35,187 nucleotides of DNA from an uncultured Desulfatiglans sp. (GTDB lineage: Bacteria; Desulfobacterota; DSM-4660; Desulfatiglandales; Desulfatiglandaceae). The translations under genes and the position numbers were made by a program. The stretch covers positions 3,381,708 through 3,416,894 of the forward strand of contig LR026961.1 in assembly GCA_900498135.1 (NCBI GenBank), given 5' to 3'. This document shows, one piece after another, positions 1 through 34,265 of the stretch (position 1 is its first letter; the number at the start of each line of letters is the position of its first letter). The notes beneath the pieces were generated by a model. That model did no database searches. It was not told the DNA's origin and worked only from the letters and a program-made list of their open reading frames with translations.

Positions 1-1170
1 GAAGTCGGCGGATTGCAGGCTGCGCAGCAGGTTCAGGCGCAGCTGGGTCTCGCGGCCCGGGTCATTCAGGAAGGCGCCGGCCAGGCAGACGTTCAGGCTT
101 TGGTAGACCTCGCGATTGGGATAGCCCAGGCGGAAAAACCGCGCACCGGCGATATCCTCTGTGCGGTGAAAGGTCAGGTAGCCGGTCTGGAAAAGCAGGG
201 CCTCGGTGGGCATGGTGTCCACATCGAAGGTCGAAAGGAGCATTTCGGATGCCACGGTCTGGCCCAGGCTTGGGGTGAAGACGCCCCGTTCCGTAAGCAG
301 CTTGACCAGGAAGGTGGGGGTGCCGGTCTCGAACCAGTAGGCCCCGAAGGTGTGCTTGGAGAAGAGCAGCAGCACGTCGAAGGGGTTGTAGACGCTCTCC
401 CCCAGCCAGTTGTACCCGTCGTACCACTCCCGGATGAGCGCCCGGTCCAGGCCCGGCAGCTCAGGGGCGAAGACCGTCTCGAGGTCGGCCTCGGTGTAGC
501 CGCAGATGGCCGAGTAGGGCGCTTCCACCGTGATGTCCCGCAGGTTGTTCAGGCCCGAGAAGATTCCGGCCTTGCTGAACTTGGAGACTCCGGTCAGGAA
601 GGCGAAGCGGATGTGGGCGTCGTTGTCCTTGATCACCGAGTAGAAGTCGCGCAGCACGTCCCGCACCCGGGCGGCCTCTTCCCGGTCCGCGATGGCATCC
701 AGGATGGGCTTGTCGTACTCGTCCACCAGGATCACCATCTGCCGGCCGGTTTTTTCATGGGTTTGGCGGATGAGTTGTTTGAAGCGGCTGCGGATTTCGG
801 GAAACCGCATGCTGATCCCCCAATTCTCCTCAGCGTACGTAAGCTGCTCGATCAGGCTGTTTTCAAGCGCCTCGACCGATCCCAGCACGCCCCCGGCAAA
901 GCTGAAGAGCAAGACCGGGTGGGATACGGACCAGTCCCAATGGTCCTCGGCGTAAAGCCCGGCAAAGAGTTCTCGGCTCCCACTGAAGAGCTCCTTCAGG
1001 GTGTCCACCAGCAGGCTTTTTCCGAAGCGGCGGGGGCGCGAGAGAAAGTAGTAGCTTCCTTCCTCGATGAGCCCCAGAATAAATCCGGTCTTATCCACAT
1101 AATAATAATCGCCTTCCCGAATCTTGCGGAAAGACTGCATCCCGATCGGCAGCTTCTTTTTGGCGCTCAT
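1..1170 (-). CDS. AAA-ATPase-like protein (PD-(D/E)XK-associated family), 3' end cut by window edge
   Basis: Reading the minus strand from ATG at 1170 gives 390 codons with no stop before the window edge. The N-terminus starts MSAKKKLPIG and runs into GDYYYVDKTGFI and the P-loop SRPRRFGKS (about residues 44-52), then the Walker B-like ILVDEYDKPILDA. These are hallmarks of the AAA-ATPase_like family (Pfam 09820), whose members usually carry a C-terminal PDDEXK_9 nuclease-like domain. That domain would lie beyond the edge here. The family is abundant in anaerobes, often in many copies per genome, and its cellular role is not established; a mobile or defence-related role has been suggested. It diverges from the polysaccharide locus and shares the 1.3-kb intergenic region with it. 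Family confident, function unknown. Confidence 0.88.
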   Translation of the reverse strand, partial: MSAKKKLPIGMQSFRKIREGDYYYVDKTGFILGLIEEGSYYFLSRPRRFGKSLLVDTLKELFSGSRELFAGLYAEDHWDWSVSHPVLLFSFAGGVLGSVEALENSLIEQLTYAEENWGISMRFPEIRSRFKQLIRQTHEKTGRQMVILVDEYDKPILDAIADREEAARVRDVLRDFYSVIKDNDAHIRFAFLTGVSKFSKAGIFSGLNNLRDITVEAPYSAICGYTEADLETVFAPELPGLDRALIREWYDGYNWLGESVYNPFDVLLLFSKHTFGAYWFETGTPTFLVKLLTERGVFTPSLGQTVASEMLLSTFDVDTMPTEALLFQTGYLTFHRTEDIAGARFFRLGYPNREVYQSLNVCLAGAFLNDPGRETQLRLNLLRSLQSADF

Positions 1171-1616: not shown

Positions 1617-1639
1617 GGGTCTATCAAAATGATAGACCC
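1617..1639. promoter_or_regulatory. Palindrome copy 1, putative enhancer/operator site
   Basis: Perfect inverted repeat with 10-base arms GGGTCTATCA and TGATAGACCC around AAA. It shares the core GGTCTATCA-N3-TGATAGACC with the sites at 1877-1897 and 2234-2250. Its centre lies about 390 bases upstream of the expected sigma-54 start site. Size and symmetry suit a dimeric helix-turn-helix regulator, possibly a sigma-54 enhancer-binding protein. The regulator's identity is unknown. Confidence 0.6.
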
Positions 1640-1876
1640 TAATCAACATGCTGAGATCAATAACAATCTTAATCTAATGCGGCCTGTTTCGCCCATTCTC
1701 GTGCTTCATTCTACTTCAAAAAAACCTCCCGCGAGCATTTCCCCCAGGCTGGGGGTAACTTCCTATCCTCCACAACGGCCACACACCTAGCCTCTTGTAA
1801 ATACAAGCATAAAACCCACGGCAAGAACCGCGCCCCGGATCTGTCCCCTACCATCCTTCAGCCCGACACGATTCCA

Positions 1877-1897
1877 GGTCTATCAAATTGATAGACC
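1877..1897. promoter_or_regulatory. Palindrome copy 2, putative sigma-54 upstream activator site
   Basis: Perfect 21-base palindrome, GGTCTATCA-AAT-TGATAGACC. Its centre (1887) is about 130 bases upstream of the expected start of the sigma-54 promoter at 1990-2006, which is the classic distance for an enhancer-binding protein site. It is the same motif as at 1617 and 2234. Confidence 0.65.
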
Positions 1898-1989
1898 GGT
1901 CTGTTCAAGTCGATCAATATAATAGTTTTAACGCTGAACATAATGGTTTCACAATGTGAATCAATAAGGATGTCAGTGTCTTATATCGA

Positions 1990-2006
1990 TGGCACGCCTT
2001 TTGCAA
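1990..2006 (+). promoter_or_regulatory. Sigma-54 (RpoN) -24/-12 promoter
   Basis: TGGCACGCCTTTTGCAA matches the consensus TGGCAC-N5-TTGCA exactly, with GG (1991-1992) and GC (2003-2004) at the required spacing. Transcription would start near 2016-2018 and read toward the FlbD-like gene at 2512 and the sugar genes behind it, leaving a leader of about 500 nt. Sigma-54 promoters need an activator ATPase; the palindromes at 1617 and 1877 are candidate binding sites. No activator gene is in the window. Confidence 0.85.
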
Positions 2007-2096
2007 TTAGTACTGCGACCATGCGCCGGAGCAGGTTCTTCACCGGCGCCCACCTCGATTCCATAAAACGTGACACCATTTGGATGGACAGCCCCG

Positions 2097-2131
2097 GAAT
2101 GACCCTGAAGCCGTTCGTTTTAGGGTCATTC
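2097..2131 (+). terminator. Hairpin in the sigma-54 leader (attenuator or sRNA terminator candidate)
   Basis: Arms GAATGACCCT (2097-2106) and AGGGTCATTC (2122-2131) pair perfectly over 10 bp around a 15-base loop, followed by GGCGG and a short TTTT at 2137-2140. It lies about 80-115 nt downstream of the predicted sigma-54 start. The U-run is short, so termination would be partial at best. It could be a leader attenuator or the 3' end of a roughly 120-nt RNA. Confidence 0.4.
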
Positions 2132-2233
2132 GGCGGTTTTCGATCTTCGAGGCGCTCCATCCCCGGCCTCCGCGGATCAGTCGCAGCGCTGGTTCCGCGG
2201 CGTCGCATACGGCGGCAGACAGGGCCGGCCGGT

Positions 2234-2250
2234 GTCTATCATTTTGATAG
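2234..2250. promoter_or_regulatory. Palindrome copy 3, within the leader
   Basis: GTCTATCATTTTGATAG has arms CTATCA/TGATAG around TTT. Its 15-base core is the reverse complement of that at 1617-1639, but the outer right arm has decayed to GGG. It lies about 225 nt downstream of the predicted sigma-54 start, where a bound regulator might loop to the upstream sites or block transcription. Confidence 0.5.
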
Positions 2251-2511: not shown

Positions 2512-2763
2512 ATGATCGAGGTGGTGCTCCTCGACAATTCGAAGATGTGGCTGAACCCCTTGCACATATTCTCCATCAGGTCCAAGCCCGACACGGTCAT
2601 CACCTTCACGACGAAGCAGACGCTGACCGTCCGGGACTCGGTGCAGGAGTTGTGCAGGAAGATCGACGACTATTTCCGGTTCATCAATCTCGGCCAAGGA
2701 GTTTCTGTGGAGCAGGATACGGAAGAGAGCACCAAGCCATCATTGATCAAGCAGACGGTCTGA
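2512..2763 (+). CDS. FlbD-family small protein
   Basis: 83 residues from ATG 2512, preceded by an AAGAAGG-like ribosome site. The N-terminal 60 residues follow the FlbD pattern (Pfam 06289): [19 protein letters not shown], then the conserved P-D-T-V-I-T segment and a C-terminal helix starting around [11 protein letters not shown]. The last 20 residues are polar and not conserved. FlbD proteins are usually encoded in flagellar operons of spirochaetes, Firmicutes and deltaproteobacteria and are linked to motility, with no known enzymatic activity. Here it is the first gene after a sigma-54 promoter and 70 bases ahead of polysaccharide genes, with no flagellar genes around. It may therefore act as a small regulator or adaptor for polysaccharide production; that is inference. 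Family assignment is good, role open. Confidence 0.78.
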
Positions 2764-2833: not shown

Positions 2834-4507
2834 ATGTTGAGCAAAAGCAATATCCTGGATTCTTCTGTCTTGGCGGACGCGGTGGATCGAGATGCCCATG
2901 CCGCTCAGGCGTCCAATCCTTGCATCGCTGTGATCGGTTCCGGCTATTGGGGCAAAAACCTCGTCCGCAACTATCACCAGCTCGGCGCCCTGAGCCTGAT
3001 CTGCGACAGCAGCGAGACGACCCTGGCCTCCTTCAGGCAGCAGTACCCCGATGTCCCATCGTGTTGCGCCCTGGCCGAAGTCATCGGCCGCAGCGACATC
3101 AAAGGCGTGGTGATTGCGACCCCGGCCGAAACCCATTTTTCCCTGGCCCGTGAGGCCTTGATGGCCGGAAAGCACGTCTACGTCGAGAAGCCCCTCGTGC
3201 TCGATGAACGGGAAGGGCAGGAGCTGATCGACCTCGCCGCCAAGAAAAACCTCACCCTTATGGTGGGTCACCTCCTCCAGTACCACCCCTGCTTCGTCCG
3301 TTTGAAGGAGATGGTCCAAAACGGCGAACTCGGCCGCATCAATTACATCTATTCGCACCGCTTGAACCTCGGCAAGATCCGCCGCGAGGAGAACATCCTC
3401 TGGTCCTTCGCCCCGCACGACATCTCCATGATCCTTTCGCTCGCCGACGAGATGCCCGAGACGGTCTCGGCCACGGGCGGGTGCTACCTCCACCAGAAGA
3501 TCGCCGATGTCACCACCACGCACCTGGAGTTTCCCTCCGGTCTGCGCGCCCACATATTCGTCTCGTGGCTGCACCCATTCAAGGTACAGCAGTTGGTGGT
3601 CGTAGGCGAGCGCAAGATGGCGGTTTTCGATGACACCCGACCCTGGGAAGACAAACTTCTGCTCTACCCGCACCAGATCAACTGGCACCACAACCTCCCC
3701 GTCCCGGTCAAGGCCGAGCGCGAACGTCTGGACATCCCCCAGGACGAACCCCTCAAGCGCGAGTGTCTGCACTTTCTTGCCTGCCTCGGCAACGGCCACC
3801 GGCCGGCGACCGACGGCAGCGAGGGCCTCAGGGTCCTGCGCATCCTCAACGCCGCCCAGGAATCCCTGGATGACAGCGGGGCCAAAGTCCCCCTGAACGG
3901 CAAGGGCGCCACCGCCTCCGCCCGGCCCGATTCGCCTTCCGCCCAACCCTACTTTGTGCACGAATCGTCCCTGATCGACGACAACTGCGAGATCGGTGCC
4001 GGCACCAAGATCTGGCACTTCTGCCACGTGCTCTCGGGTTCCCGGATCGGCCCCAACTGCAACATCGGCCAGAATGTGATGATCGGCCCCAATGTGGCCA
4101 TCGGCAAGGGATGCAAGATTCAGAACAACGTCTCCCTCTACAAGGGCATCACGCTCGAGGACGGTGTCTTCTGCGGCCCCTCGATGGTCTTCACCAACAT
4201 CTACAACCCCCGGGCCGAGATCCGCAAGATGGACCAGGTGCGGCCGACCCTCGTCAAGCACGGCGCCACCCTCGGCGCCAACTCCACCATCGTCTGCGGC
4301 AACACCGTCGGCCGCTACGCCTTCATTGGGGCCGGCGCCGTGGTGACCCGCAACGTTCCGGATCATGCCCTCATGGTCGGCAACCCTGCGCGCCGGATCG
4401 GCTGGATGTGCCAGTGCGGCGAGCGGCTGACCGATGATCTCGAGTGCCTGCTTTGCGGGAAAACCTACCTTGAAAATGGTCACGGCCTGCAGGAAAAGCA
4501 GAACTGA
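2834..4507 (+). CDS. Fused UDP-sugar 3-dehydrogenase (Gfo/Idh/MocA, WlbA/WbpB-like) and N-acetyltransferase (WlbB/WbpD-like)
   Basis: 557 residues, ATG after AAGGAGCGG. Residues about 30-370 are a Gfo/Idh/MocA oxidoreductase: the Rossmann motif [12 protein letters not shown] (31-42), EKP (118-120), GHLLQYHP and the APHD motif. This half would oxidise C3 of UDP-GlcNAc-uronic acid using NAD. After a Pro/Ser-rich linker, residues about 375-530 form a left-handed beta-helix acyltransferase with hexapeptide repeats ([35 protein letters not shown]) like WbpD/WlbB, which acetylates the 3-amino group. The last 30 residues hold two CxC/CxxC pairs (CQCGERL and CLLCGKTY), a zinc-ribbon-like tail. Steps one and three of the pathway are thus fused, and the aminotransferase for step two follows 21 bases downstream. 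Such fusions are known. Assignment strong; exact sugar stereochemistry unproven. Confidence 0.9.
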
Positions 4508-4528: not shown

Positions 4529-5617
4529 ATGCAATTCATCGACCTGGCGGCGCAGCAAAAGCGCATCCGCACCAACATTGAAGAGAGGATCAAAAAGGTC
4601 CTCGACCACGGCCAGTACATCATGGGCCCGGAGGTCAGGGAACTCGAGGAGAAGCTCGCCGCGTACATCGGCGTCAAACACGCCATCACCTGTTCGAGCG
4701 GCACGGACGCCCTCCTGATCGCGCTCATGGCATTCGACATCGGCTCCGGCGACGAGGTGATCACGGTCCCCTACACCTGGATCTCGACCGCCGAGGTGAT
4801 CGCGCTCCTCGGGGCCGAACCCGTTTTCGTCGACATCCAGCCGGACACCTTCAACATGGACCCGGAGAAGCTCGAGGCCGCCATCACCCCCAGGACCCGG
4901 GCCATCATGCCGGTCTCCATTTACGGCCAATGCGCGGACATGACCCGCATCGAGGCCGTCGCCCAAAAACACGGGATCCCGGTCATCGAGGATGGGGCCC
5001 AGAGCTTCGGCGCCACCCATCATGGAAAACCATCCTGCGCCCTCTCCGCCATCGGGTGCACGTCGTTCTTCCCCTCCAAACCCTTGGGCTGCTATGGGGA
5101 CGGCGGCGCACTCTTTACCCAGGAGGACGCCCTGGCGGACAAAATGCGGCAGATCCGCGTCCATGGCCAGAGGGTCAAGCATCAGCACCCCCTCGTGGGG
5201 ATCAATGGCCGTCTCGACACCCTTCAGGCCGCCATCCTCCTCGAAAAGCTGGAGATCTTCCCTGAGGAATGCCGCCTGCGCCAAGAGGTCGGCCAGCGGT
5301 ACAACACCTTTCTGTCCGGCATCCCGGGGATCGCGCCCCCGGTCGTAGCCGAGGGAAACACCTCGGTCTACGCCCAATACACCCTTTTGGCGGAGGACCG
5401 CGCCAAGGTCGAAGCCGGCCTGAAGGCCCAAGGCATCCCTTCGGTCGCCTACTACGCCGTGCCGCTCCACCTCCAAGGCGCATTCGCCAACCTGGCGCAC
5501 CAACCCGGGGACTTCCCCGTGGCCGAACGGGTTGCCTCCCGGTGCCTCAGCCTGCCCATGCACCCTTACCTGGCCCCCGAAGACCAGTCGCGGATCGCAG
5601 AGGCCCTGGGCGGCTAA
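4529..5617 (+). CDS. wbpE: DegT/DnrJ/EryC1 sugar aminotransferase (WbpE/WlbC-like)
   Basis: 362 residues, PLP-dependent aspartate-aminotransferase fold. The start MQFIDLAAQQKRIR is typical of the WbpE/WlbC group. TCSSGTDALLIAL binds the PLP phosphate, VIEDGAQSFGA holds the Asp that contacts the pyridine nitrogen, and the Schiff-base Lys is in FFPSKPLGCYGDGG. The likely reaction is glutamate-dependent amination of the 3-keto sugar made by the preceding dehydrogenase domain, giving the 3-amino sugar that the fused acetyltransferase acetylates. In Pseudomonas and Bordetella these three activities make UDP-2,3-diacetamido-2,3-dideoxy-glucuronic acid. The 6-dehydrogenase (WbpA) and any 2-epimerase (WbpI) are not in the window. 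Family very secure; substrate inferred from the neighbour. Confidence 0.9.
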   Translation: MQFIDLAAQQKRIRTNIEERIKKVLDHGQYIMGPEVRELEEKLAAYIGVKHAITCSSGTDALLIALMAFDIGSGDEVITVPYTWISTAEVIALLGAEPVFVDIQPDTFNMDPEKLEAAITPRTRAIMPVSIYGQCADMTRIEAVAQKHGIPVIEDGAQSFGATHHGKPSCALSAIGCTSFFPSKPLGCYGDGGALFTQEDALADKMRQIRVHGQRVKHQHPLVGINGRLDTLQAAILLEKLEIFPEECRLRQEVGQRYNTFLSGIPGIAPPVVAEGNTSVYAQYTLLAEDRAKVEAGLKAQGIPSVAYYAVPLHLQGAFANLAHQPGDFPVAERVASRCLSLPMHPYLAPEDQSRIAEALGG

Positions 5618-7013: not shown

Positions 7014-7019
7014 GCCTTC
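7004..7019. terminator. Small hairpin between convergent genes
   Basis: GAAGGC-CTGA-GCCTTC forms a 6-bp stem over the stop codons of the convergent genes ending at 7013 (plus) and 7018 (minus). There is no clear T-run on either side, so this is a weak bidirectional terminator candidate. Confidence 0.3.
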
Positions 7020-8808
7020 AGCCTTTGTCTTCGTCCGCTTCCTGCGCGGCCTTAAGCCGCATCCTGTAGAGCCCGTATGAAAAGTCCCGCTCGGTCGCCG
7101 CTGCCACTTCCTCCAAATGGTACCTGTCCTTGATTCCCTGGCACAACCGGCGGTTGCGCTCGTTTTGGGTGTTGCACCAGTAGTTGTAGTGAAAATAGAC
7201 ATGCCCCTGATATCTTTTGAACAGATCCTCGATCAGCCCGGGGTTGTCGATTCCCGCGTAGGTTTGAATGGCGCCCTGGCCCCACAGCAGGAACATGGTG
7301 GGGTTCTGGGTCAGGACGATCGAACGCTCAGGGATCTTCGCCACGAACTCCCGCGCATGCAGATGGTCGTACCGCGCTCCCCAGGCCTCCTGTCCGACCC
7401 TGCCGACCAGGGGTATGAACCGGATGAACGTAAAGGCGGCCAGCATGACCACCAGGGCGGAGGCAACTCCCCGTTGTCCAGGATGATTCGTAGCGGCCTG
7501 GATTTCGCCTCCGCCCTCGCTTGGTTCGACCGCCCATCGCAGGGCGGCCAGCCGCTCCCTCAGCCATGCTCCTCCCATCCCCGCCAGGACCGCGAGGGGC
7601 ATGAACGATACGAGAGCAAAGCGGACATCCGCGCCGTACTGATAGCTCCCCGCGTAAAAGAAGAGGAAGATCCCCCAGAAGAGAAGAAACCACACCGGGA
7701 GGATCATCCGCCACTTTCCAAGGCCCCTGGAGCAGAAAAGCCCCAGCCCCGCCAGCACGGTCAGCACCACGGGGAAATGCCGGCCGTCGAGATAATAGAG
7801 CCCGTTGGTCGACAGATTGTGCCCCAGGAAGGCCAAGGAAAACGTGCTGCCCTCCGCTCCCCAGGAATGGCCGCTGACCGCATAGACATGCAGCAGGTGG
7901 GGGAGAAGAAAGAGGGTGGTCAGAAGCCCCGAGGTCCACACCCTCTTCTCGGCGAATACCCCCGGCGAGACCACCAGCAGAACGAAGACGGCCAAGACCG
8001 CCACAAAGACCGATTCCGGCCGCATCTGGCAGGCAAAGGGGATGAGCAGAGACGCGACCAGCAGCTGCCTGCCCTGCCGCGTCTTGAGAAAGACCATCAG
8101 CGCAAGGACTGCAAGCCCTGTGAAAAGGGCGGCCGACGGCTCCGCGGCTGCCGTGTTGGACCAGACGATGTTATGCGGGATGAGGGCATAGGCAAGCCCC
8201 CCCAAAAAGGCGCCGAAAAAGCGTCCGCTGAGGTGCCAGCCGATGAAGAAGGCCGTCACGGCCCCGAAGGCGAATATCAGGTTGTTCAGCAGAAAGGCGT
8301 AGTGTTCATCGACCCCGAACACCTGAAAGGCCAGGCTGATGAGAAACGGCCAGCCGTTCGGCTCCTTGTTGTAGGTGATCCAATGGGGAAAATACTCCCC
8401 GTACTCGAAGGTCCCGTAGTTGCAGTACCCGGTCTGGTTGGCCAGCGCGATGTTCTGCCCCACGTTCCCGTAGATGTCTTCGTCATAGAAGATGCGGTGG
8501 GTCCGGGGGGTGTAAAGAGCGGTCATGCCGAAGGCAAAGACGAAGAGAAGGACGAGCAGAACCCCCTTCTGATTGAAAAACCCTTTTGCTGCACGGAAGA
8601 AATCTTTCCAGCAGAGGGCCGTCGCAACGAGCAGCAGAAAGAAATGGATCCTCAGGACCCAGGGCACCCATATCTTGAGGAGACCCGTGATCTCGTCCTT
8701 GGACCCATGATCCAGGAACCAGACATCGATTCCCAGCAGACACAAATAGCCGGCTCCAAGCAAAACAGGGTAGAGCCTGTGGTCATAGATTTTCTTCAGT
8801 ATGTTCAT
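7018..8808 (-). CDS. GT39/ArnT-PMT-type integral membrane glycosyltransferase
   Basis: 596 residues with about ten to twelve hydrophobic helices, the size and build of the dolichyl/undecaprenyl-phosphate-sugar dependent GT-C glycosyltransferases (GT39, ArnT/PMT-like). The first large loop carries an acidic pair in RIFYDEDIYGNVGQNIA (about residues 108-124), in the place of the catalytic Asp/Glu of this superfamily. A hydrophilic C-terminal domain of about 130 residues follows the last helix. Such enzymes use a lipid-phosphate sugar as donor on the outer face of the inner membrane. The GT2 gene at 12293-12988 is a plausible maker of that donor. ATG 8808 has no strong ribosome site. The acceptor is unknown. 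Confidence 0.8.
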   Translation of the reverse strand: MNILKKIYDHRLYPVLLGAGYLCLLGIDVWFLDHGSKDEITGLLKIWVPWVLRIHFFLLLVATALCWKDFFRAAKGFFNQKGVLLVLLFVFAFGMTALYTPRTHRIFYDEDIYGNVGQNIALANQTGYCNYGTFEYGEYFPHWITYNKEPNGWPFLISLAFQVFGVDEHYAFLLNNLIFAFGAVTAFFIGWHLSGRFFGAFLGGLAYALIPHNIVWSNTAAAEPSAALFTGLAVLALMVFLKTRQGRQLLVASLLIPFACQMRPESVFVAVLAVFVLLVVSPGVFAEKRVWTSGLLTTLFLLPHLLHVYAVSGHSWGAEGSTFSLAFLGHNLSTNGLYYLDGRHFPVVLTVLAGLGLFCSRGLGKWRMILPVWFLLFWGIFLFFYAGSYQYGADVRFALVSFMPLAVLAGMGGAWLRERLAALRWAVEPSEGGGEIQAATNHPGQRGVASALVVMLAAFTFIRFIPLVGRVGQEAWGARYDHLHAREFVAKIPERSIVLTQNPTMFLLWGQGAIQTYAGIDNPGLIEDLFKRYQGHVYFHYNYWCNTQNERNRRLCQGIKDRYHLEEVAAATERDFSYGLYRMRLKAAQEADEDKG

Positions 8809-8813
8809 GATAG

Positions 8814-8956
8814 AAGCTCGAAGGTAAAAGCGCGAAGCTCAAAGTTGAAAGCTCAGAGCGAAAAGACCGGGAATTGAAGCGCGAAGCATAAAGCATAAGG
8901 ATCAAACCGTCAAGCAGTCCGTTTTTGTCATCCCTTACCCTCTGGCTTTGAGCTTC
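8814..8956. repeat. Degenerate dispersed repeat (GCTCGAAG/GCTCAAAG type)
   Basis: This spacer is built largely from imperfect units such as GAAGCTCGAAGG, GCGAAGCTCAAAG, GAAAGCTCAGAG, GAAGCGCGAAGC and (3' part) GGCTTTGAGCTTCGAT. Similar strings occur at 10761-10786, 12206-12291 and 19030-19055, always between genes. It is a low-complexity dispersed repeat of unknown origin. Confidence 0.6.
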
Positions 8957-8969
8957 GATATGGAAATAC

Positions 8970-10676
8970 TTATCTTTTCTCTTTCGTTACAAGAAAATCC
9001 CCTATAAACAAATGCCTGACATCAGTTCTTCGAAACATATCCAAAGCGTCATCCGGGGAGCAGACCATCGGCTCGCCATGGATGTTCAAACTGGTGTTGA
9101 GCACCACGCCCATGCCGAGTTCCTCTTTGACCCGGATCAGCAGGTCCCGGTAACGGGGGTTTTCATCGCCCACAATATGCGGCCGGCACGTCCCGTCGAT
9201 ATTGCTGACCCCCTCCATGAGCGCCCTGTGGGCCTCGCGCACCCTGAAGGCCGTCGTCATGAAGCGGTTCCGCCCGGGGTCCTGTCCATCCACGCACAGA
9301 AGCGCCTCCGCATCGCTTTCCAGAATAGACGGGCAGAACGGCTGGTACCATACCCGCTTTTTGAGCACCAGGTTGAGCCGGTCCTTGATCTCCTTCCGGT
9401 CGGGCCTCGCGACGATGCTCCGGTTCCCGAGGGCCCTCGGGCCGATCTCCATCCGCCCCTGAAACCAGAAGATGATTTCGCCGTCGAGCACCAGCCGCGC
9501 GGCGCGGCCGGGGGCATCGTCCAGCTTCACATAGGGAAATCCGCAACGCTCGATGGCGCGCAGGATCTCGCCTTCCGTGAAAGCAGGGCCCAGATACAAG
9601 TCCCTCAGCCTGCAGCCCCGGACCCCATGCCGCTCGTAGTTGATTCCGATGGCTGCCCCCAGGGCGAGCCCGCCGTCCCCCATGTGGGGAAAAACGAAGA
9701 CCTCCTCCGCCTCGGGCAGCCGGGCGATCTTCATGTTCAGCTTGACGTTGGAAAATACGCCGCCCGCACACGCCAAAGAGCGCTCGCCTGTCAAACGCAT
9801 CGCGTTTTGGATGAGCGTCAAGGCCCTTTCTTCGAGGACCCGCTGGGCCATGTAGGCGAACTGCTCGGATGGGTACTGCCAGAGGATCTTTTTCAGTTCG
9901 CGGTGCATCTCCGTGGACGTGTAGGGGGAGACGAGCCTCAAGCCCCGCACCTCGATCAACGCCATGAGCGGATTGTCCCGATCGGGGATCGGGTAGGCGT
10001 AGTTGGCCAAGGCCATGACCTTCCCTTCGTCTTCCAACTCCCGCATGTTCATGAGGTTGGTCACATGTTCGAAAAAGATCCCGAGCGAGACGGACGAAGG
10101 CAAAGTCTGCAAGATATGAAGGCCGTCCCCGTCGAACCGCCACAGGGATCCGGAAAGGCCGTCCCCGACACCGTCGAGTGTGAGCACCAGACACCGTTCA
10201 AACCCGCTGGTCCGCGCCGCCGCCTCGGCGTGGCACCGGTGGTGATCCAGCAGGGACAGGCGGAAGCCGGCAAAGCCCTCGGCCTCGAGCCGGCTTCTGA
10301 GATGGATGCGGCTGAGCCGGCGGCTGATGAGGTTCGGCCCCAGTTCGGTGAACCGGTATTTGAAGCCCTTTTTGAAGGGGTCCGAGCCCCGGGGCCGCAT
10401 CTTTCTCCGGCGGATGAGGTAGTATTCCTCTTTCAACCCGGGCACCAGCCGGGTCAGCGTCTTGGCCGGGTCGGAGGTGGAGACGGCGATCTCCCCAACC
10501 GCGGAGGCCTCGATGCCTTCGTATTGGAGACAGGCCCGGATGGAGCGAAACGGAAATCCAACCTCCAGCTTCCGGCGGCTCAATCGTTCTTCGTTGACGG
10601 CAAAAACGATCCGGTCGCCCTCGACAAGGGCTGCGCCCGCGTCGTGTCCGTCCCAGATGCCCAGCGTGTAAGTCAT
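8970..10676 (-). CDS. NodU/CmcH-family carbamoyltransferase
   Basis: 568 residues, full length for the family. The N-terminal Kae1/ASKHA-like domain shows YTLGIWDGHDAGAAL, FAVNEERLSRRK, LLDHHRCHAEAA (the His-rich metal/carbamoyl-phosphate site) and LTLDGVGDGLS. The C-terminal domain includes LACAGGVFSNVKLN, FPHMGDGGLALGAA, GPRALGNRSIVA and FCPSILE. These proteins move a carbamoyl group from carbamoyl phosphate, via carbamoyl-AMP, to a hydroxyl of a sugar or antibiotic. Within this locus it probably decorates a sugar of the exported glycan. ATG 10676 follows GGGAG. It belongs to a four-gene minus-strand block whose spacers carry dispersed repeats. Family very secure; acceptor unknown. Confidence 0.92.
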   Translation of the reverse strand: MTYTLGIWDGHDAGAALVEGDRIVFAVNEERLSRRKLEVGFPFRSIRACLQYEGIEASAVGEIAVSTSDPAKTLTRLVPGLKEEYYLIRRRKMRPRGSDPFKKGFKYRFTELGPNLISRRLSRIHLRSRLEAEGFAGFRLSLLDHHRCHAEAAARTSGFERCLVLTLDGVGDGLSGSLWRFDGDGLHILQTLPSSVSLGIFFEHVTNLMNMRELEDEGKVMALANYAYPIPDRDNPLMALIEVRGLRLVSPYTSTEMHRELKKILWQYPSEQFAYMAQRVLEERALTLIQNAMRLTGERSLACAGGVFSNVKLNMKIARLPEAEEVFVFPHMGDGGLALGAAIGINYERHGVRGCRLRDLYLGPAFTEGEILRAIERCGFPYVKLDDAPGRAARLVLDGEIIFWFQGRMEIGPRALGNRSIVARPDRKEIKDRLNLVLKKRVWYQPFCPSILESDAEALLCVDGQDPGRNRFMTTAFRVREAHRALMEGVSNIDGTCRPHIVGDENPRYRDLLIRVKEELGMGVVLNTSLNIHGEPMVCSPDDALDMFRRTDVRHLFIGDFLVTKEKR

Positions 10677-10760
10677 TGGCCGTGCTTCTCCCTTTGTTTC
10701 GATGATATCCTTATCGTAACACCCCGCAGGAAGCGGCTCGGAGCTCCACGTGTATCCCCC

Positions 10761-10786
10761 TTTGGGCTTTCAGCTTCGAGCCTTCG
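10761..10786. repeat. Dispersed repeat overlapping a gene's stop codon
   Basis: Contains GGGCTTTCAGCTTCGAGCC, the same type as at 8814 and 12206. On the minus strand it supplies the last codons (KARS) and the TGA of the radical SAM gene, so the repeat has inserted at, or grown into, the 3' end of that gene. Confidence 0.55.
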
Positions 10787-12188: not shown

Positions 12189-12205
12189 TTGCCGTCTCCA
12201 AAAGG

Positions 12206-12291
12206 GCTCGAAGCCCCAGGCTCAAACCTCATAAACATAACCACAGGGCTTTCCCAGCGTGCCCCTTGGCCTTCGAGCTTCGAGCGTCGAC
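12206..12291. repeat. Dispersed repeat between minus-strand genes
   Basis: The spacer between the radical SAM and GT2 genes carries GGGCTCGAAGC near 12205 and GGCCTTCGAGCTTCGAGCG around 12268-12286, the same degenerate GCTTCGAGC family as at 8814, 10761 and 19030. Confidence 0.5.
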
Positions 12292-12292
12292 C

Positions 12293-13468: not shown

Positions 13469-14059
13469 ATGATACGAAGATGGGTTCACTTGATTTTGGT
13501 GATGGGTGTCTGCCTGTGGTTCTCTGCGGCCTATGCGGAAGAGCCCGCCGAATACATCAACCCAGACGGAACCATCAACGAGGAAAAGCTGGTTGCTGAC
13601 ATAGAATCGGGTGTTATTTCCGATCCGGTGGCATTCACCGGCCTCCTCGTCGAGGTGGCTCCGGAGCAGGCTCCGACCATCGTAGGGATTATTGCCAAGG
13701 TGGTCCCGGAAAAAGCGCCCCTGATCGCAGAGGCCGCTGTAAACAAAGCCCCGCCCGAAAAGGCCGCCGATATCACGGTCGCAGCCGTCTTGGCCGCCCC
13801 TGAGCAGGCCGATGCGATTGTCGCCGCCGTCATCGCCGTTGTCCCCGCCGAGGCAGAGAAGATCCAGGCCGCCGTGGATGCGGTCAAGCCCCCGGTGACT
13901 GAGACCACCACCGAGACCACGTCGGAAACCACTGAAGAGACCACCGAAGAGACCACGGCCGAGACCACCAGCGTCGAAACCACCACGGTCGAGACGACGA
14001 CCACCACCACCACAACCACGACCACCAGCGTGGAAACGACGGTCAGTCCGGCCAGTTGA
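13469..14059 (+). CDS. Secreted repeat protein with Thr/Glu-rich tail, unrecognised family
   Basis: 196 residues from ATG 13469, preceded by GGGAGGAGGAG; the longer frame from 13361 is less likely. A signal peptide ends near AAYA (residue 23). Residues about 62-140 are five tandem 15-16 residue units of the form P-E-x-A-x-x-I-x-x-A-(A/V)-V/I-x-x-(A/V), each likely one short helix pair (VAPEQAPTIVGIIAKV, VPEKAPLIAEAAVNKA, PPEKAADITVAAVLAA and so on). Residues 143-192 are almost only Thr and Glu with Ser/Val, including a run of eleven Thr, encoded by an ACC/ACG-rich microsatellite. It precedes the beta-barrel gene by 44 bases, so it probably belongs to the export module as a periplasmic or surface protein. 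Thr-rich tails are often O-glycosylated. Function unknown. Confidence 0.75.
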   Translation: MIRRWVHLILVMGVCLWFSAAYAEEPAEYINPDGTINEEKLVADIESGVISDPVAFTGLLVEVAPEQAPTIVGIIAKVVPEKAPLIAEAAVNKAPPEKAADITVAAVLAAPEQADAIVAAVIAVVPAEAEKIQAAVDAVKPPVTETTTETTSETTEETTEETTAETTSVETTTVETTTTTTTTTTTSVETTVSPAS

Positions 14060-14103
14060 GCTTTTTGATCGCATTTGACAGCAGAAATTCGAGGGAACGA
14101 CCG

Positions 14104-15444
14104 ATGACAAAAAGATGGCTTTTTCACATATGTTTAGCGATGGCGCTGGTTGCCTTCACCTTCTCGCAGACCTTGGCCGAGGTCATCTGGCAGAGCGGCC
14201 CCATAAAGGTCGAGGATGAAATGGCGGAAGACAGGGGCAGGATCACCGTAGGGAAGCTCAAGGTGATCCCGACCATGAAGGTAGGCGGCGTTTATGACGA
14301 CAACATCTTCCTCGGCAACGACTATACGAACAACCCCAACAACCCCGGCACAACGGTGAACGGGCAGTTGACCAAGCCCCTCGAATCCGACTATATCCTC
14401 CATCTCATGCCGGGGCTCCTCGCCAACTACGCCATCCCAGGCGGGCGGGGGAACGTCAACCTGGGCTACGAAGGCGATTGGGCGTTCTACGAGAGCATGA
14501 CCGTCCAGAACTGGAACAACCAGCGCGGGATCTTCAACGCCGATTACAAGGCGCCGGCCGGCCTCCTGCTGGGGATCGACAATGTCTTCACCAGCGCCGA
14601 AGACCCTTACGGGGACGCCACCCAGTATGCCCTCGGTTACAGCAAGAAGCGCTGGAACAACGACCTCAACACCAAGGTCGGCTGGGATTTTCATAACCGC
14701 TTGAGGGTGCTGGGTTATTATGACTTCTACAAACAAAAATACGATGACGACCGGGACTACACCCAGAACTGGACCACCAACGGCTTCGGCATCGGCGTGG
14801 AGATGCGCGTCCTTCCCAGGACCTGGGCCTTTCTCAGGTACCACCTCTACGATCAGAACTTCGACACCAACCTCTTCGGCACCACCGACTCCAACAACGC
14901 CGACAACAAGCAGAACAGCATCAGCAGCGGTCTCCTGTGGGATGGAGGCGGAAAATTGGAAGGGGAGGTCAATTTCGGCTGGGGATGGCTCGACTTCGAC
15001 AATTCCGTCGATCGAAACGGCAGGGCCTACGAAAACTACAATACGTGGGTCGCGGCGACATCCTTGAGCTACAGGGTCCTGGCCAGAACGCGGTTGACTT
15101 TCAATATCGCCAGGGCTATAAGGCCCACAGGCGCGGACAAGCAGGAATACTACGATGACACCCAGGTCGGCCTCAACATCGCCCAGGATCTGCCCTATAA
15201 ACTGAGCCTGAACGCCGGTTTCATTTACAGCAGAAACGACTACAACACCGCCGTAAGCGCTGTTTCCCTGAGCACGGATAAGAGGGAGGACGACAACTAT
15301 CTGGCAGCGGTCAACCTCAAATACAAGATCCGCCCCTGGCTGGACGCCTCGCTGGGATACCGGTACCTCAAGAAGGATTCGAACGATGTGCTCCAGTCCT
15401 TCACCGACAACCAGGTGATCCTCGCCGTAGGGGCCTCCTATTAG
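14104..15444 (+). CDS. Outer-membrane beta-barrel protein of the polysaccharide export module
   Basis: 446 residues. ATG 14104 follows GAGGGAA; the upstream TTG 14056 would spoil the signal peptide. MTKRWLFHICLAMALVAFTFSQTLAE is a clear signal peptide. The mature protein is rich in alternating aromatic/polar strands (LHLMPGLLANYAIPGG, VNLGYEGDWAFYES, VLGYYDFYKQKYDDD, LDASLGYRYLKKDS) and ends in VILAVGASY, a terminal strand finishing in an aromatic residue as expected for BAM-dependent barrels. It resembles the EpsL-type or BBP2-like outer-membrane proteins found beside Wza/Wzc genes in deltaproteobacteria. It could be an export pore or surface anchor for the polymer. Barrel call strong, exact role inferred from context. 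Confidence 0.8.
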   Translation: MTKRWLFHICLAMALVAFTFSQTLAEVIWQSGPIKVEDEMAEDRGRITVGKLKVIPTMKVGGVYDDNIFLGNDYTNNPNNPGTTVNGQLTKPLESDYILHLMPGLLANYAIPGGRGNVNLGYEGDWAFYESMTVQNWNNQRGIFNADYKAPAGLLLGIDNVFTSAEDPYGDATQYALGYSKKRWNNDLNTKVGWDFHNRLRVLGYYDFYKQKYDDDRDYTQNWTTNGFGIGVEMRVLPRTWAFLRYHLYDQNFDTNLFGTTDSNNADNKQNSISSGLLWDGGGKLEGEVNFGWGWLDFDNSVDRNGRAYENYNTWVAATSLSYRVLARTRLTFNIARAIRPTGADKQEYYDDTQVGLNIAQDLPYKLSLNAGFIYSRNDYNTAVSAVSLSTDKREDDNYLAAVNLKYKIRPWLDASLGYRYLKKDSNDVLQSFTDNQVILAVGASY

Positions 15445-15575
15445 TTCGATCGTCCGTTTATTCCTCCTCTCCCGGGTCACGCCGAATGCAGCCTGAGGCG
15501 AAGATAGAGGATCCAGCCCCTTCGGCCGCATCGCCAACCCGGCCCTCAAAAGGCCCGAGAGAAGGAAAAAAGCCT

Positions 15576-16664
15576 ATGTCACCCATGGCCCGTTCGTTCG
15601 ATACCCGCTGTTCTCTTTCTCCATCCCATACGCTGCGCGCTTTGCTCTTTGCGATGCTCCTTGGGGCCTTCGGCTGCGGCCATGGCGGCGAGATTGTCAA
15701 GGAGACCACCGTCGCCACCGGCGATCTCGGTGGTCTCAAGGCGGAAGACCGGGCGATGCTCGACGAGATCAAAAAGACCGTCGTCAAGCCGGCGGCCGAT
15801 GAAGGCATCAGCAGCATCATCGAAGAAACGCCGCACTTCACCGTGTCCGAATACCTCGCCAGGTACCCTGAGGCCAGGGCGATGGTGGCCGACTACCGCG
15901 TAGGCGGAAATGACGTCCTGAACATCACGGTTTACGAAGAAAAGGACCTTTCCCGGGAGGCGGTCCGCGTCTCCGGAAAAGGGTACATCTCCTTCCCCCT
16001 AGTGGGCCAGCTCAAGGTTGCGGGTCTGACCACCACGGAAATCGAAAGGCTGATCTCCGACAAGCTGGCCGAGCAGCAGTACCTCTTGGACGCCCACGTG
16101 TCGGTCATGGTCACCGAATACAACAGCCAGCAGTTTTTTGTCCTCGGGGCCGTAGACAGTCCCGGAGCCTATCCCCTCCAGGCACGGGAGCGGGTTCTGG
16201 ACGCCATCTCCAAGGTAAAGGGCCTGGAGCATGAAAAGGCCAGCAGCAAATTGATGCTCATCCGGACCCTCAACCCCGACACCGGAAAAGAGCAGAAACT
16301 CGTGATCGACATCAACCTGAGGGACCTTCTGAACCGCGGGGACCAGGCCTCCAACATCTATCTCGCCGACCGTGATGTCCTCTACGTGTCGCCGGTGGAG
16401 CACTACTACATCATCGGACAGGTGAATACGCCCGGCTCCTACAACATACCCGAAAACGGGATCACCCTGGTCGAGGCCATCGGTATGGCCGGGGGCTTCA
16501 GCCGGATCGCCTCCCGCAACAATACCCGCATCATCCGCGTCGAAGACGGCGTCGAAAAGATCATCCAGGTAAAAGTCGATGCCATCACCGACGCCGGCAA
16601 AAAGATCCACGACGTGGTCATCAAGCCGGGCGACATCATCGTTGTGCCGGAAAGCTTCTTCTAG
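15576..16664 (+). CDS. Polysaccharide export outer-membrane lipoprotein (Wza-like, SLBB domains)
   Basis: 362 residues from ATG 15576, which has AGAAGGA 8 bases upstream; the frame is open from 15486 but that start lacks a site. The N-terminus (LRALLFAMLLGAFGC) is a signal peptide ending at a likely lipidated Cys. A Poly_export domain begins near residue 106 (YRVGGNDVLNITVYEE) and includes ISFPLVGQLKVAGLTTTEIE. It is followed by two SLBB-type segments, FVLGAVDSPGAYPLQ and YIIGQVNTPGSYNIPENGITLVEAIGMAGG, and the closing IKPGDIIVVPESFF. Wza-family proteins form the outer-membrane channel for capsule or EPS and dock on the Wzc-type kinase, encoded 17 bases downstream. Secure family assignment. 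Confidence 0.92.
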   Translation: MSPMARSFDTRCSLSPSHTLRALLFAMLLGAFGCGHGGEIVKETTVATGDLGGLKAEDRAMLDEIKKTVVKPAADEGISSIIEETPHFTVSEYLARYPEARAMVADYRVGGNDVLNITVYEEKDLSREAVRVSGKGYISFPLVGQLKVAGLTTTEIERLISDKLAEQQYLLDAHVSVMVTEYNSQQFFVLGAVDSPGAYPLQARERVLDAISKVKGLEHEKASSKLMLIRTLNPDTGKEQKLVIDINLRDLLNRGDQASNIYLADRDVLYVSPVEHYYIIGQVNTPGSYNIPENGITLVEAIGMAGGFSRIASRNNTRIIRVEDGVEKIIQVKVDAITDAGKKIHDVVIKPGDIIVVPESFF

Positions 16665-16681
16665 GACTTTCGAGATACCCT

Positions 16682-19006
16682 ATGCCTGACGACCCCCAAG
16701 GCGAAGAACAACTCGACCTTCGCGACTACCTTCGCGTGATTCTCAAACGCCGGTGGACCATCATCACCGTCTTTGCGGTAATCTTCATCAGCGTGGGCAT
16801 CTATACCTACACGGCTACGCCGATCTACAAGGCCTCCACCCGCCTGGTCATCGAGAAGGAAAACCCGAACGTGGTGTCCATCGAGGAGGTCATGGCGGTG
16901 GACTCCTCCGGCACGGACTACTATCAGACCCAGTACAAGATCATCGAAAGCCGCTCCGTCGCCCGTGAGGTCATCAGCCGCCTCGATCTGAACGAGAGCG
17001 AGGAGTTCTTCCCCGAGCCCAAGGACGACATCCTCTCCAACCTGAAGCGCTCCGTCCGGGAGACCATTCATTCCTGGAAAGAGGGCATCCAGTCTCTCCT
17101 CAAAAGCGGCGAGGACAAGGCCGATGCGTCGACCGTTGAACTGGATCCCGACTCCGCGCTGGTCTCCGCCTTCATCGGCCGGATCGAGGTCTCTCCCATC
17201 CGCAACAGCCGCCTGGTCGACGTAGGCTTCGAGGCCAAGGACCCCCTTCTCGCCACCCGGATCGTCAACACCCTTGCAAAGGCCTACATCGACCAGAACC
17301 TGGAGATCAAGCTGAGGGCCGCCCAGGACGCGGTCAGGTGGCTCCATGAGCGGATCGAAGTGGAGCGCAAAAAGGTCGAGCAGGCCGAGCAGGCGCTCCT
17401 CAGATATAAAGAGGAACACGATATCATCACCGATTTCACCAGCGACACCGAGCATGTGACGGCCCAGAAGCTCGCCCAGCTGAACGCCCAGGTCGTGGAT
17501 GCGGAGGCCATCCGTGTCGAGGCGGAGACCCGATACCAGCAGGCACTCCGGCTGAAGGGGTCGCCCGACCTGCTCGACTCGATCCCCGAGGTCCTCAACA
17601 ATGAACTGATCCGCCAGATCAAGACCATGGAGGTGGATCTCTTCAAGCGGATGTCCGAACTCTCCAAAAAATACGGGAGGAACCATCCCCAGATGGTGGC
17701 CATCGAGGCCGAGCTGAAGACCCTCGAAAGACGCAAGCAGCAGGAGATCAACCGGGTCATCAATTCCCTCAAGAACCACTACGAAGTGGCCGTCGCGAAG
17801 GAGGAATCGCTCAAGCTCGCCCTGGCCAACCAGAAGAAGGAGTCCCTCGAACTCAATCAGAAGGCCATCCAGTACAGCGTCCTCAACCGCGAGGTCGAAA
17901 GCGCCCGGGAGATGTACAACCTCCTGATCAAGCGCTTCAAGGAGACCACCCTCACAGAGGATATGCGGACCGGCAACATCCGGGTCATCGACCAGGCCGA
18001 GGTGCCTCGCAGCCCGGTAAAGCCCAACAAAAAGCTCAACCTCCTCCTGGGCCTGATCGTTGGCCTCGTGGCCGGCACGGGCCTGGCCTTCTTCTTCGAA
18101 TACCTGGACAACACCATCAAGATCCCGGACGACCTTAAACAGCACCTGAAGATCCCCTACCTGGGCCCGACCCCCTTGATAGAGGCAGCGGGAAATCCCG
18201 GGGATAAAGGTTCCCCATCTACCGATCTGGTCTGCCTGCACGCCCCCAAGTCCACGGCCAGCGAATCCTTCCGGGGGATCCGCACCAATATTCTTTTCTC
18301 CTCCGCCGAGGGGGCGCCCCAGGCGATCCTGGTGACGAGCCCCGGGCCCAGGGAAGGAAAGACCCTCACCACAACCAACCTCGCTGTCGCCATGGCCCAG
18401 TCCGGCAGCAAAGTGGTCCTGGTCGATTGCGATCTGCGCCGTCCCAAGATTCACAGCCTGTTCGGCGTCTCGAGGGAGCGTGGGTTCACCAATCTCCTGG
18501 TGGGGAATGCCGAGCTCGACACCACGGTGGTTTCGACCCAGGTGCCCAACCTGGACCTGATCGTCTCCGGGCCCCTCCCTCCCAATCCTTCCGAGATGCT
18601 CGGGTCGACCCGGATGGCGGACCTGCTCGCGGAGTTGAGAAAACGCTACGACCGGATCCTGATCGATTCACCCCCCATCACGGCGGTCACGGATTCCGTC
18701 ATCCTCTCCAAATACGTGGACGGGGTTGTCCTGGTCATCCGGGCTGGCGACACGGTCCGGGAAGTCGCCAAAAACGCCCTGAATCAGCTCCAGGCCGTCG
18801 GTGCCCACATCCTTGGCGGCATCCTGAACGCCGTCGATATCGGCAAGGACAAATACTACTATTACTACTACTATCAGTACTACCACTACTACTACGGCGA
18901 CGACGGCGAAAAGAAAAGATCCCGCCGCGCAAAGCGCAAAAAGAAGGGCTCCAAAAGCGCCTACTACGCCGGCAAAGACGAACTCGGCACAGAAAAAATC
19001 TCTTAG
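16682..19006 (+). CDS. wzc: Wzc-like polysaccharide co-polymerase and BY-type tyrosine autokinase
   Basis: 774 residues. A Wzz domain with a first membrane helix at about 21-40 (WTIITVFAVIFISVGIYTY) is followed by a long coiled periplasmic region (about 190-420), a GNVR-like segment with SRSPVKPNKKLN near 440, and a second helix near 450-470. The cytosolic BY-kinase domain has Walker A GPREGKT (about 554), Walker A' LVDCDLRRPK (about 580) and Walker B ILIDSPP (about 658). The C-terminus carries the autophosphorylation cluster: 12 Tyr in residues 725-738, interrupted by one Gln and one His, then a Lys/Arg-rich tail. Kinase cycling of this cluster controls polymer length and export; the phosphatase partner is encoded next. 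The Tyr codons form a TAC/TAT microsatellite. Very secure. Confidence 0.95.
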   Translation: MPDDPQGEEQLDLRDYLRVILKRRWTIITVFAVIFISVGIYTYTATPIYKASTRLVIEKENPNVVSIEEVMAVDSSGTDYYQTQYKIIESRSVAREVISRLDLNESEEFFPEPKDDILSNLKRSVRETIHSWKEGIQSLLKSGEDKADASTVELDPDSALVSAFIGRIEVSPIRNSRLVDVGFEAKDPLLATRIVNTLAKAYIDQNLEIKLRAAQDAVRWLHERIEVERKKVEQAEQALLRYKEEHDIITDFTSDTEHVTAQKLAQLNAQVVDAEAIRVEAETRYQQALRLKGSPDLLDSIPEVLNNELIRQIKTMEVDLFKRMSELSKKYGRNHPQMVAIEAELKTLERRKQQEINRVINSLKNHYEVAVAKEESLKLALANQKKESLELNQKAIQYSVLNREVESAREMYNLLIKRFKETTLTEDMRTGNIRVIDQAEVPRSPVKPNKKLNLLLGLIVGLVAGTGLAFFFEYLDNTIKIPDDLKQHLKIPYLGPTPLIEAAGNPGDKGSPSTDLVCLHAPKSTASESFRGIRTNILFSSAEGAPQAILVTSPGPREGKTLTTTNLAVAMAQSGSKVVLVDCDLRRPKIHSLFGVSRERGFTNLLVGNAELDTTVVSTQVPNLDLIVSGPLPPNPSEMLGSTRMADLLAELRKRYDRILIDSPPITAVTDSVILSKYVDGVVLVIRAGDTVREVAKNALNQLQAVGAHILGGILNAVDIGKDKYYYYYYYQYYHYYYGDDGEKKRSRRAKRKKKGSKSAYYAGKDELGTEKIS

Positions 19007-19029
19007 CTGCATGCCTGTAGTTTTGCCTT

Positions 19030-19055
19030 TCCTTTGAGCTTTCAGTCTCAAGCTC
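19030..19055. repeat. Dispersed repeat just upstream of the phosphatase gene
   Basis: CTTTGAGCTTTCAGTCTCAAGCTCC belongs to the degenerate family seen at 8814, 10761 and 12206. It occupies the place where a ribosome binding site for the gene starting at 19058 would be expected. Confidence 0.5.
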
Positions 19056-19057
19056 CA

Positions 19058-19825
19058 ATGATCGACCTTCACTGCCACATACTCCCCAACGTGGACGACG
19101 GGCCTCAGTCCGTGGATGAGAGCCTTGCCATGGCAAGACTAGCCGTAAAAGACGGCATCCGCGAGATCGTGGCTACGCCCCATTCCCTGAACGGCATCTA
19201 TTCGAATTCGACCCAAAATGTGGTTTCCGGAGTGGCAGCCTTTAATGAAATCCTCTCCGCCAACGGAATTGACCTGAAGGTGTATCCGGGCGCTGACCTT
19301 CATCTCTGCAAAAATATGATCCAGCGGATAGAAAACGGTGAGGCCTGCACCATCAATAACGCGGGGAAATTCATCCTGCTGGAGCTTCCATCCCAGATGG
19401 TCCCCAATGGCGTTAAAGATGAGATATTTGCCCTCAAACTGAACGGCATCACTCCGATCATTACCCATCCCGAACGGAATGCCGTCATTCAGCACGATCC
19501 AAACATCCTCTATGAGCTTATCCAGATGGGTGCGCTCGCGCAGGTGACGGCTATGAGCCTGACCGGCGATTTTGGAGAGTTTATTGCCAACGTGTCCGGA
19601 ATCCTTGTGCGGGATCGGTTGATCCACATGATTGCGACAGACGCCCATTCCTCCGTGGATCGACCCCCGGTTTTATCCGATGCGGTTGAACAGGTCGGTG
19701 AGCTGCTTAAAAACTATGACGAGGCCCTCAGCATGGTCAGGGCAGTTCCAGAGGCGATTTTCTCAGGGAGATTCCCCGATCTGGGCGAGCGCAGTCCGGC
19801 GAGACGTTCGGGAAAGGCTGCCTGA
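19058..19825 (+). CDS. CpsB/YwqE-type PHP-family protein-tyrosine phosphatase
   Basis: 255 residues from ATG 19058; the frame could also start at TTG 19034, but MIDLHCHILP is the natural beginning. PHP metal ligands are visible: DLHCHILPNVDDG (residues 3-15), VATPH, the Glu in LLELPSQ, IITHPERN and IATDAHS. This is the manganese-dependent phosphatase that dephosphorylates the Tyr cluster of Wzc/CpsD-type kinases, and the kinase gene lies 51 bases upstream. It acts in the cytoplasm at the inner membrane. No ribosome site is evident because a dispersed repeat fills the leader, so translation may be weak or coupled. It is the last gene of the GC-rich export module. Family secure. Confidence 0.9.
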   Translation: MIDLHCHILPNVDDGPQSVDESLAMARLAVKDGIREIVATPHSLNGIYSNSTQNVVSGVAAFNEILSANGIDLKVYPGADLHLCKNMIQRIENGEACTINNAGKFILLELPSQMVPNGVKDEIFALKLNGITPIITHPERNAVIQHDPNILYELIQMGALAQVTAMSLTGDFGEFIANVSGILVRDRLIHMIATDAHSSVDRPPVLSDAVEQVGELLKNYDEALSMVRAVPEAIFSGRFPDLGERSPARRSGKAA

Positions 19826-29649: not shown

Positions 29650-29655
29650 TGTCAA

Positions 29656-29699
29656 TGATCACCCTAATAGAGCCACCCATGATCGCCTTAATGGAGCCA
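29656..29699. repeat. IS21 terminal direct repeats
   Basis: TGATCACCCTAATAGAGCCA (29656-29675) and TGATCGCCTTAATGGAGCCA (29680-29699) are 24 bases apart with 16 of 20 positions identical. IS21-type elements carry several such transposase-binding repeats near each tip. Confidence 0.7.
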
Positions 29700-34255: not shown

Positions 34256-34265
34256 AGGCAAGACC

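Follow-up and report, generated by a model that had tools for sequence, protein, structure and literature searches.

Genes and Features of the Locus

The window analyzed here is a stretch of 35,187 nucleotides from the 4.80-Mb single-contig genome of an uncultured Desulfatiglans species. It was compared with the start of contig C19 of one congener, the sister species (genome G001). Palindromic sites lie around a sigma-54 promoter, and a polysaccharide locus follows. The features are as follows (window positions):

1618..1638, no strand: site 1, GGTCTATCA-AAA-TGATAGACC, perfect 9+9 palindrome, centre 1628
1877..1897, no strand: site 2, GGTCTATCA-AAT-TGATAGACC, perfect palindrome, centre 1887
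1911..1925, no strand: site 2b, CGATCA-ATA-TAATAG, degenerate copy, centre 1918, 31 bp from site 2
1990..2006, + strand: sigma-54 (-24/-12) promoter, TGGCACGCCTTTTGCAA, predicted start near 2016
2007..2180, + strand: conserved leader, probably untranslated, 156 of 174 aligned columns identical in the sister species, stable predicted fold
2236..2250, no strand: site 3, core CTATCA-TTT-TGATAG (CTATCATTTTGATAG), centre 2243, about +227, within the leader
2512..2763, + strand: FlbD-like ORF, first gene after the promoter (PF06289, 1.8e-15)
2834..4507, + strand: GFO/IDH/MocA oxidoreductase fused to a hexapeptide acyltransferase, a sugar-nucleotide enzyme by its domain matches
4529..5617, + strand: DegT/DnrJ/EryC1 sugar aminotransferase by domain match
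14056..19825, + strand: export core with an outer-membrane barrel (BBP2_2), a Poly_export/SLBB export protein, a Wzz/AAA chain-length protein/tyrosine kinase and a CpsB/CapC phosphatase

The other polymer genes in the window encode flippase-like, Wzy_C and glycosyltransferase proteins. Beyond the window, the locus goes on with Epimerase_2, ATP-grasp, bacterial sugar transferase and a second Wzy_C protein; its size is about 50 kb in both genomes. The first-pass annotation, made from the window alone, had noted that activators of this kind drive EPS genes in some species. A polysaccharide locus does lie downstream, but the first ORF is the FlbD-like gene and not an EPS enzyme.

In both species, a FlbD/SwrD-like motility-family protein heads the polysaccharide operon. 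A paralogue of the FlbD-like ORF is present at C1:2484389 of the same genome (G000, L078), beside a MotA-like ORF (MotA was named by eye). The AlphaFold model of the FlbD protein is poor (pLDDT 57.3).

Several other genes were observed in the window. An AAA-ATPase-like gene (PF09820; window 1-1170, - strand) lies directly upstream of the palindromes and promoter, and the sister species has a different ORF there. A minus-strand block at 7018-12988, within the plus-strand polysaccharide genes, encodes a PMT_2 glycosyltransferase, a NodU-like carbamoyltransferase, a radical SAM/B12 protein and a family-2 glycosyltransferase; no DNA match to this block was found in the sister contig C19. The right part of the window contains mobile-element-like genes, namely an IS66 transposase fragment (28958-29680, - strand) and a DruA-domain protein (34227-35168, + strand).

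Palindromic Sites and the Sigma-54 Promoter

The window was searched for GGTCTATCA-N3-TGATAGACC, with up to 3 mismatches in the 18 specified bases. Sites 1 and 2 were the only matches, and 0.01 were expected from shuffled sequences. Thus, the motif occurs in no other place of the 35 kb, as had been proposed. The previously described perfect copy at 1877-1897 was confirmed. The upstream copy is also a perfect palindrome, but it occupies 1618-1638 instead of 1617-1639. The core copy, previously given as 2234-2250, is real and is placed at 2236-2250; the T at 2235 fits the motif as well.

All three copies of the first-pass annotation are therefore real, but a degenerate fourth at 1911-1925 had been overlooked. 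A scan of the whole window for places that match at least 10 bases of the 12-base core gave five: sites 1, 2, 3 and 2b, and position 27986. Site 2b matches 10 of the 12 core bases, and the aligned place in the sister species, CGATCA-AGA-TGATAG at 1448-1462, matches 11. In a joint column shuffle of the 92 aligned columns, this pair gave a P of about 1e-4, which is somewhat optimistic because site 2b was noticed after inspection of the alignment. In the first 20 kb of C19, the same scan gave one other 11/12 match, at 3820, which was taken for chance. The spacers of the three strong sites consist of A or T at all 9 bases.

The sequence TGGCACG-N4-TTGCW was found at 1990 with 0 mismatches, and this is the sole match in the window at up to 1 mismatch. 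Thus, the previously proposed promoter at 1990-2006 has the full consensus. The sister promoter, TGGCACGCCTTTCGCAA, is identical at 16 of 17 positions and carries TCGC instead of TTGC in the -12 element. The genome possesses rpoN (PF04552, 212.6 bits, C1:1975973). On the plus strand between the promoter and flbD, neither a terminator-like nor a sigma-70-like site was found. Since no terminator was found, read-through into flbD is expected. The two-species alignment gave no conserved IHF site between site 2 and the promoter.

Relative to the start that we infer near 2016, the centres of sites 1, 2 and 3 lie at about -388, -129 and +227, and that of site 2b at -98. The distance of 31 bp between sites 2 and 2b corresponds to about three helical turns. 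In addition, TGTTCA and TGAACA form an inverted repeat with a wide spacer at 1902-1940, in the interval between site 2 and the promoter, with the same spacing in both species. This repeat is possibly a second binding site.

Conservation of the Sites in the Sister Species

Since the element was found in two species only, the conservation test is a single comparison of one species pair. The counterpart of site 2 (C19 1414-1434) is identical at 21 of 21 positions, and that of site 1 (C19 1156-1176) at 19 of 21. At site 3, 29 of the 30 positions of 2223-2252 are identical. The background is 126 of 238 columns between sites 1 and 2, and 63 of 92 from site 2 to the promoter (53-68%). Against this background, a result of 21/21 has a probability of about 2e-6, and one of 19/21 or better a probability of about 3e-4. 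Upstream of site 1, 185 of 467 columns are identical; the aligned DNA there is probably unrelated between the species.

The spacings are also kept. In the window and the sister species, respectively, sites 1 and 2 are 259 and 258 bp apart, sites 2 and 3 are 356 and 355 bp apart, and site 2 lies 103 bp before the promoter start in both. The two species also share the N3 spacers (AAA, AAT and TTT). Among the perfect palindromes in 1201-2600 with arms of at least 6 and a spacer of up to 8, the three sites alone were found again within the first 2.3 kb of C19. The enhancer-like placement proposed earlier is thus borne out by both the positions and their conservation.

Rarity of the Motif

In the genome, TCTATCA-N3-TGATAGA was found at 8 places with up to 2 mismatches. 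The three sites have 0, 0 and 1 mismatches, and the other five places have 2; two of these five were inspected by eye and taken for coding DNA. At up to 1 mismatch in the 14 arm bases, the genome contains no further copy beyond the three sites. Thus, the predicted regulon is a single promoter. Genome-wide uniqueness also means that no activator gene is flagged by autoregulation through the motif. Many copies unrelated to promoters, which the first-pass annotation had named as an argument against its own reading, did not appear in this search.

In 46 genomes of the family, the 14 bases at up to 1 mismatch matched in 17 genomes. Clusters of sites were found solely in the two genus members, and they were absent from the 44 other family genomes at this threshold. 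The 24 places in 15 non-genus genomes were isolated; a control pattern gave 8 places. The hope that the motif would expose a wider regulon must be given up, since neither an extra genome site at up to 1 mismatch nor a clustered family site outside the genus was found. With the 18-base motif at up to 2 mismatches, 6 of 61 relatives' genomes had a match; four of these are single places outside the genus, two of which were read by eye. When 395 phylum genomes were searched for the palindrome and the promoter 80-110 bp apart, there was one match in our own genome and one in each of three others. The sister species was overlooked by this search because its -12 element is TCGC.

Among 84,980 species genomes, the exact 18-base motif was found in 4 stretches, and 3.7 are expected by chance (our own arithmetic). 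Three of the stretches lie within open frames; one lies in no long open frame and is followed by T's. Since this count is at the level of chance, the motif as such is not widespread. When the palindrome halves were searched as text in the literature, no related report was found among the matches listed, as judged by title.

A Predicted Structured Leader That Includes Site 3

The leader gave a folding z of -4.39 in the window sequence; the sister leader is less stable (z -1.82). The alifold consensus energy was -88, compared with -63.8 (sd 5.1) for column shuffles, and 0 of 300 shuffles were as low; the consensus is of two sequences, and the shuffles did not preserve dinucleotides. Covariation was not above the shuffles: 4 pairs changed on both sides, and 64 of 300 shuffles reached 4. 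As judged by eye, no reading frame is preserved through the leader between the species. The leader was also considered as a small protein and rejected, since a 1-base gap and a premature stop break the frame that is open from 2021 when the sister species is compared (by eye).

Site 3 lies at the leader end, so that a role in DNA, in RNA or in both is possible. In the consensus fold, site 3 pairs as a hairpin beside a GACACC/GGUGUC stem, and it lies inside a 31-bp stretch that is identical in the sister species. Given this well-conserved stretch, site 3 could have an RNA role instead. In that case, sites 1 and 2 would be enhancers, site 3 would be kept as a hairpin that closes the folded domain of the leader RNA, and its match to the motif would be incidental or secondary. 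The low consensus energy is consistent with this explanation. However, the chance that the 12 core bases recur in a given 600 bp is about 4 in 100,000 (our own arithmetic), and pair changes on both sides are no more frequent than in the shuffles. We therefore regard an RNA role in place of a DNA role as possible but unlikely.

JUMPstart and eps-associated (EAR) elements are conserved leaders that head variable polysaccharide loci. The leader described here resembles them in its place at the head of a polysaccharide locus; it differs in that it has no Rfam match and has a sigma-54 promoter. Rfam cmscan of 1200-2900 gave two matches (E 2.9 and 3.9), both far under the gathering score, and neither belongs to the JUMPstart or EAR families. 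A covariance model (R1) searched over 395 relatives found the two genus members, and none else was accepted; four other matches (E 0.02-0.07) were discarded as chance. A DNA search with the leader in 148 relatives gave three short matches outside the genus, which were judged by eye to be chance, in apparently coding DNA.

Candidate Activators

The AAA+ domain of enhancer-binding proteins (EBPs; PF00158) has 37 matches in our genome and 40 in the sister genome. No match lies inside the locus in either genome (C1:3382-3433 kb of G000 and C19:1-52 kb of G001). Thus, an EBP gene in or beside the polysaccharide locus, as in the SypG type, was found in neither species. On the right, the closest domain match lies about 62 kb from the promoter (C1:3445894); on the left, the closest is about 56 kb away (C1:3327066). 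The former belongs to a PAS-type EBP that is 99.8% identical to its counterpart at C19:64556 and has the same relative place in both genomes. In view of this distance, the protein is no more than a lead as a candidate activator. Two short stretches of our genome (L064 4107-4505), outside the main copy, are about 95% identical to parts of the PAS-EBP region (C19 64094-65287 of G001). This suggests a partial duplication beside that EBP gene. In a comparison of 28 of the 37 own and 28 of the 40 sister matches, a counterpart with at least 90% identity was found for 23 of the 28 own proteins.

The typical distance of EBP sites is 100-150 bp upstream (PMC7057263), and positions as far as 3 kb upstream and 1.5 kb downstream of the start have been reported (PMC7408454).

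Comparison with Known Systems

Vibrio SypG and LuxO: The syp locus of Vibrio fischeri has four sigma-54 promoters. The locus described here has one promoter and no EBP gene inside it; its palindrome is fuller, and one of its sites falls within the leader. The likeness lies in sigma-54 control of a polysaccharide locus, as predicted here, by an NtrC-type EBP, and in a site of the form ...CA-N3-TG.... The SypG motif quoted there is TTCTCANNNTGMDWN (TTCTCA-NNN-TGMDWN), from which the core of our sites differs at 2 specified positions (by eye). The LuxO site quoted in the same report is TTGCAWWWTGCAA (TTGCA-WWW-TGCAA); it shares the short inverted repeat, the inner CA/TG, the three-base A/T spacer and the paired enhancers (by eye), whereas the outer half-site bases and the target genes differ. 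Thus, the site geometry resembles that of the SypG and LuxO sites.

NtrC at glnA: The tandem NtrC sites of glnA have three-turn spacing. They lie about 90-140 bp upstream of a sigma-54 promoter and act with DNA looping (PMC7408454); sites 2 and 2b, with the loop predicted for them, are like them in these respects. The recognition sequence is another one, and the additional sites at -388 and +227 belong to the locus described here.

FleQ and PrsR: For Pseudomonas FleQ, an EBP-family regulator, two or three predicted sites per biofilm-matrix promoter are given in PMC5026340, and a reference title there mentions enhancers downstream of the RpoN site. Our locus, in contrast, has no evidence for FleQ or c-di-GMP. 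The PEP-CTERM element, with PrsR, places an activator motif before a sigma-54 promoter and occurs in genomes that carry EPS loci (PMC1569441). In our genome, the element heads an EPS locus and not PEP-CTERM genes, and no protein exceeds the cut-off for PrsR (TIGR02915), the best score being 451.1 bits against 502.6.

Predicted Function of the Sites

We consider it probable that the palindromes are the binding sites of one dimeric sigma-54 EBP encoded elsewhere in the chromosome. The sites and the promoter are probably one dedicated switch of the polysaccharide cluster. Sites 2 and 2b would form the main, tandem enhancer. The activator would assemble there, loop to the RNA polymerase-sigma-54 complex at 1990-2006 and open the promoter. 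Sites 1 and 3 may be auxiliary and may raise the local concentration of activator or set a DNA loop. Transcription from the promoter would yield the long structured leader, followed by the FlbD-like gene and the first polysaccharide-locus genes. As judged from its sequence, this arrangement of EBP enhancer and sigma-54 promoter is of a known type, and a wider regulon is apparently absent. Against this reading stand the absence of an EBP gene from the locus, the lack of further motif copies that could flag an activator gene, the TCGC in the sister -12 element, the absence of a conserved IHF site, the restriction of the comparison to one species pair, and the possible RNA role of site 3.

The palindromes may instead be operators of a repressor or one-component regulator outside the EBP class, which would repress or modulate the sigma-54 promoter by a loop between the upstream and downstream sites. 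Near-perfect 9+9 dimer palindromes would fit such a regulator, one site lies 227 bp downstream, and the wide spacing of the sites suits looping repressors. Furthermore, the half-site CTATCA is common to our sites and the tet operator. The centre of the tet operator, however, is 1 bp and that of our sites is 3 bp. No site overlaps the promoter, and sites 2 and 2b lie at the usual distance of an EBP enhancer, with fixed spacing to a full-consensus sigma-54 promoter, which requires an activator anyway. We thus consider a non-EBP regulator rather improbable.

Apparent Exchange of the Polysaccharide Locus

After the FlbD-like gene, the sister species has WecG-like and family-4 glycosyltransferases and Wzy_C, and then the barrel protein. 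The identity between the species differs along the locus. The regulatory head is 78.8% identical over 543 bp, and the region of the FlbD-like gene is 89.3% identical over 280 bp. For the export genes, the figure is 67% over 3,068 bp, compared with 97.1-98.0% for three long blocks of the right flank (2,884, 3,883 and 4,831 bp). Because of this difference between the export genes and the right flank, exchange of the locus is the simplest reading. The left border is less sharply marked: the last flanking match of the sister contig ends at C19:1057 (91% over 501 bp), and its counterpart in our genome is DNA about 2.7 kb left of the window. The locus looks to have been exchanged under a conserved head that consists of the sites, the promoter, the leader and the FlbD-like ORF.

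The divergent locus starts near site 1, since the flanking homology of the sister contig ends at C19:1057 and its site 1 is at 1156. The palindromes might accordingly be taken for recombination sites of the exchange. Such sites would be expected at both ends; however, neither the right end of the locus nor the rest of the genome has a copy, and fixed distances to the promoter would be unexpected, so that this explanation is very improbable. That the palindromes are chance or an inert repeat can be dismissed, even though the exact 18-base pattern is as frequent in the 84,980 species genomes as chance predicts, since the window holds two full copies where 0.01 are expected, plus a third core, all retained in the sister species with a conserved spacing that already refutes it.

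Of all these observations, a constant head above an exchanged locus most deserves further study. We tentatively put forward one joint possibility. The sites, the promoter, the structured leader and the FlbD-like gene may be a constant head for loci that are swapped between close relatives. A resident activator that recognises the head would immediately bring any incoming locus under sigma-54 control. Transcription through the long locus would be aided by the leader RNA and perhaps also by the FlbD-like protein. The head would then do, with sigma-54, what JUMPstart does at the head of enterobacterial capsule loci.

A survey of Desulfovibrio vulgaris (PMC4641369) predicted no sites for 23 sigma-54 operons, a few of which are linked to exopolysaccharide. 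The gene content of the window suggests that it comes from a relative of this group. Activators of polysaccharide loci in sulfate-reducing relatives are partly unassigned, and a motif with fixed geometry at a single promoter would be a clean bait for one. A conserved head over an exchanged locus, if true, would explain how the host controls swapped polysaccharide genes.
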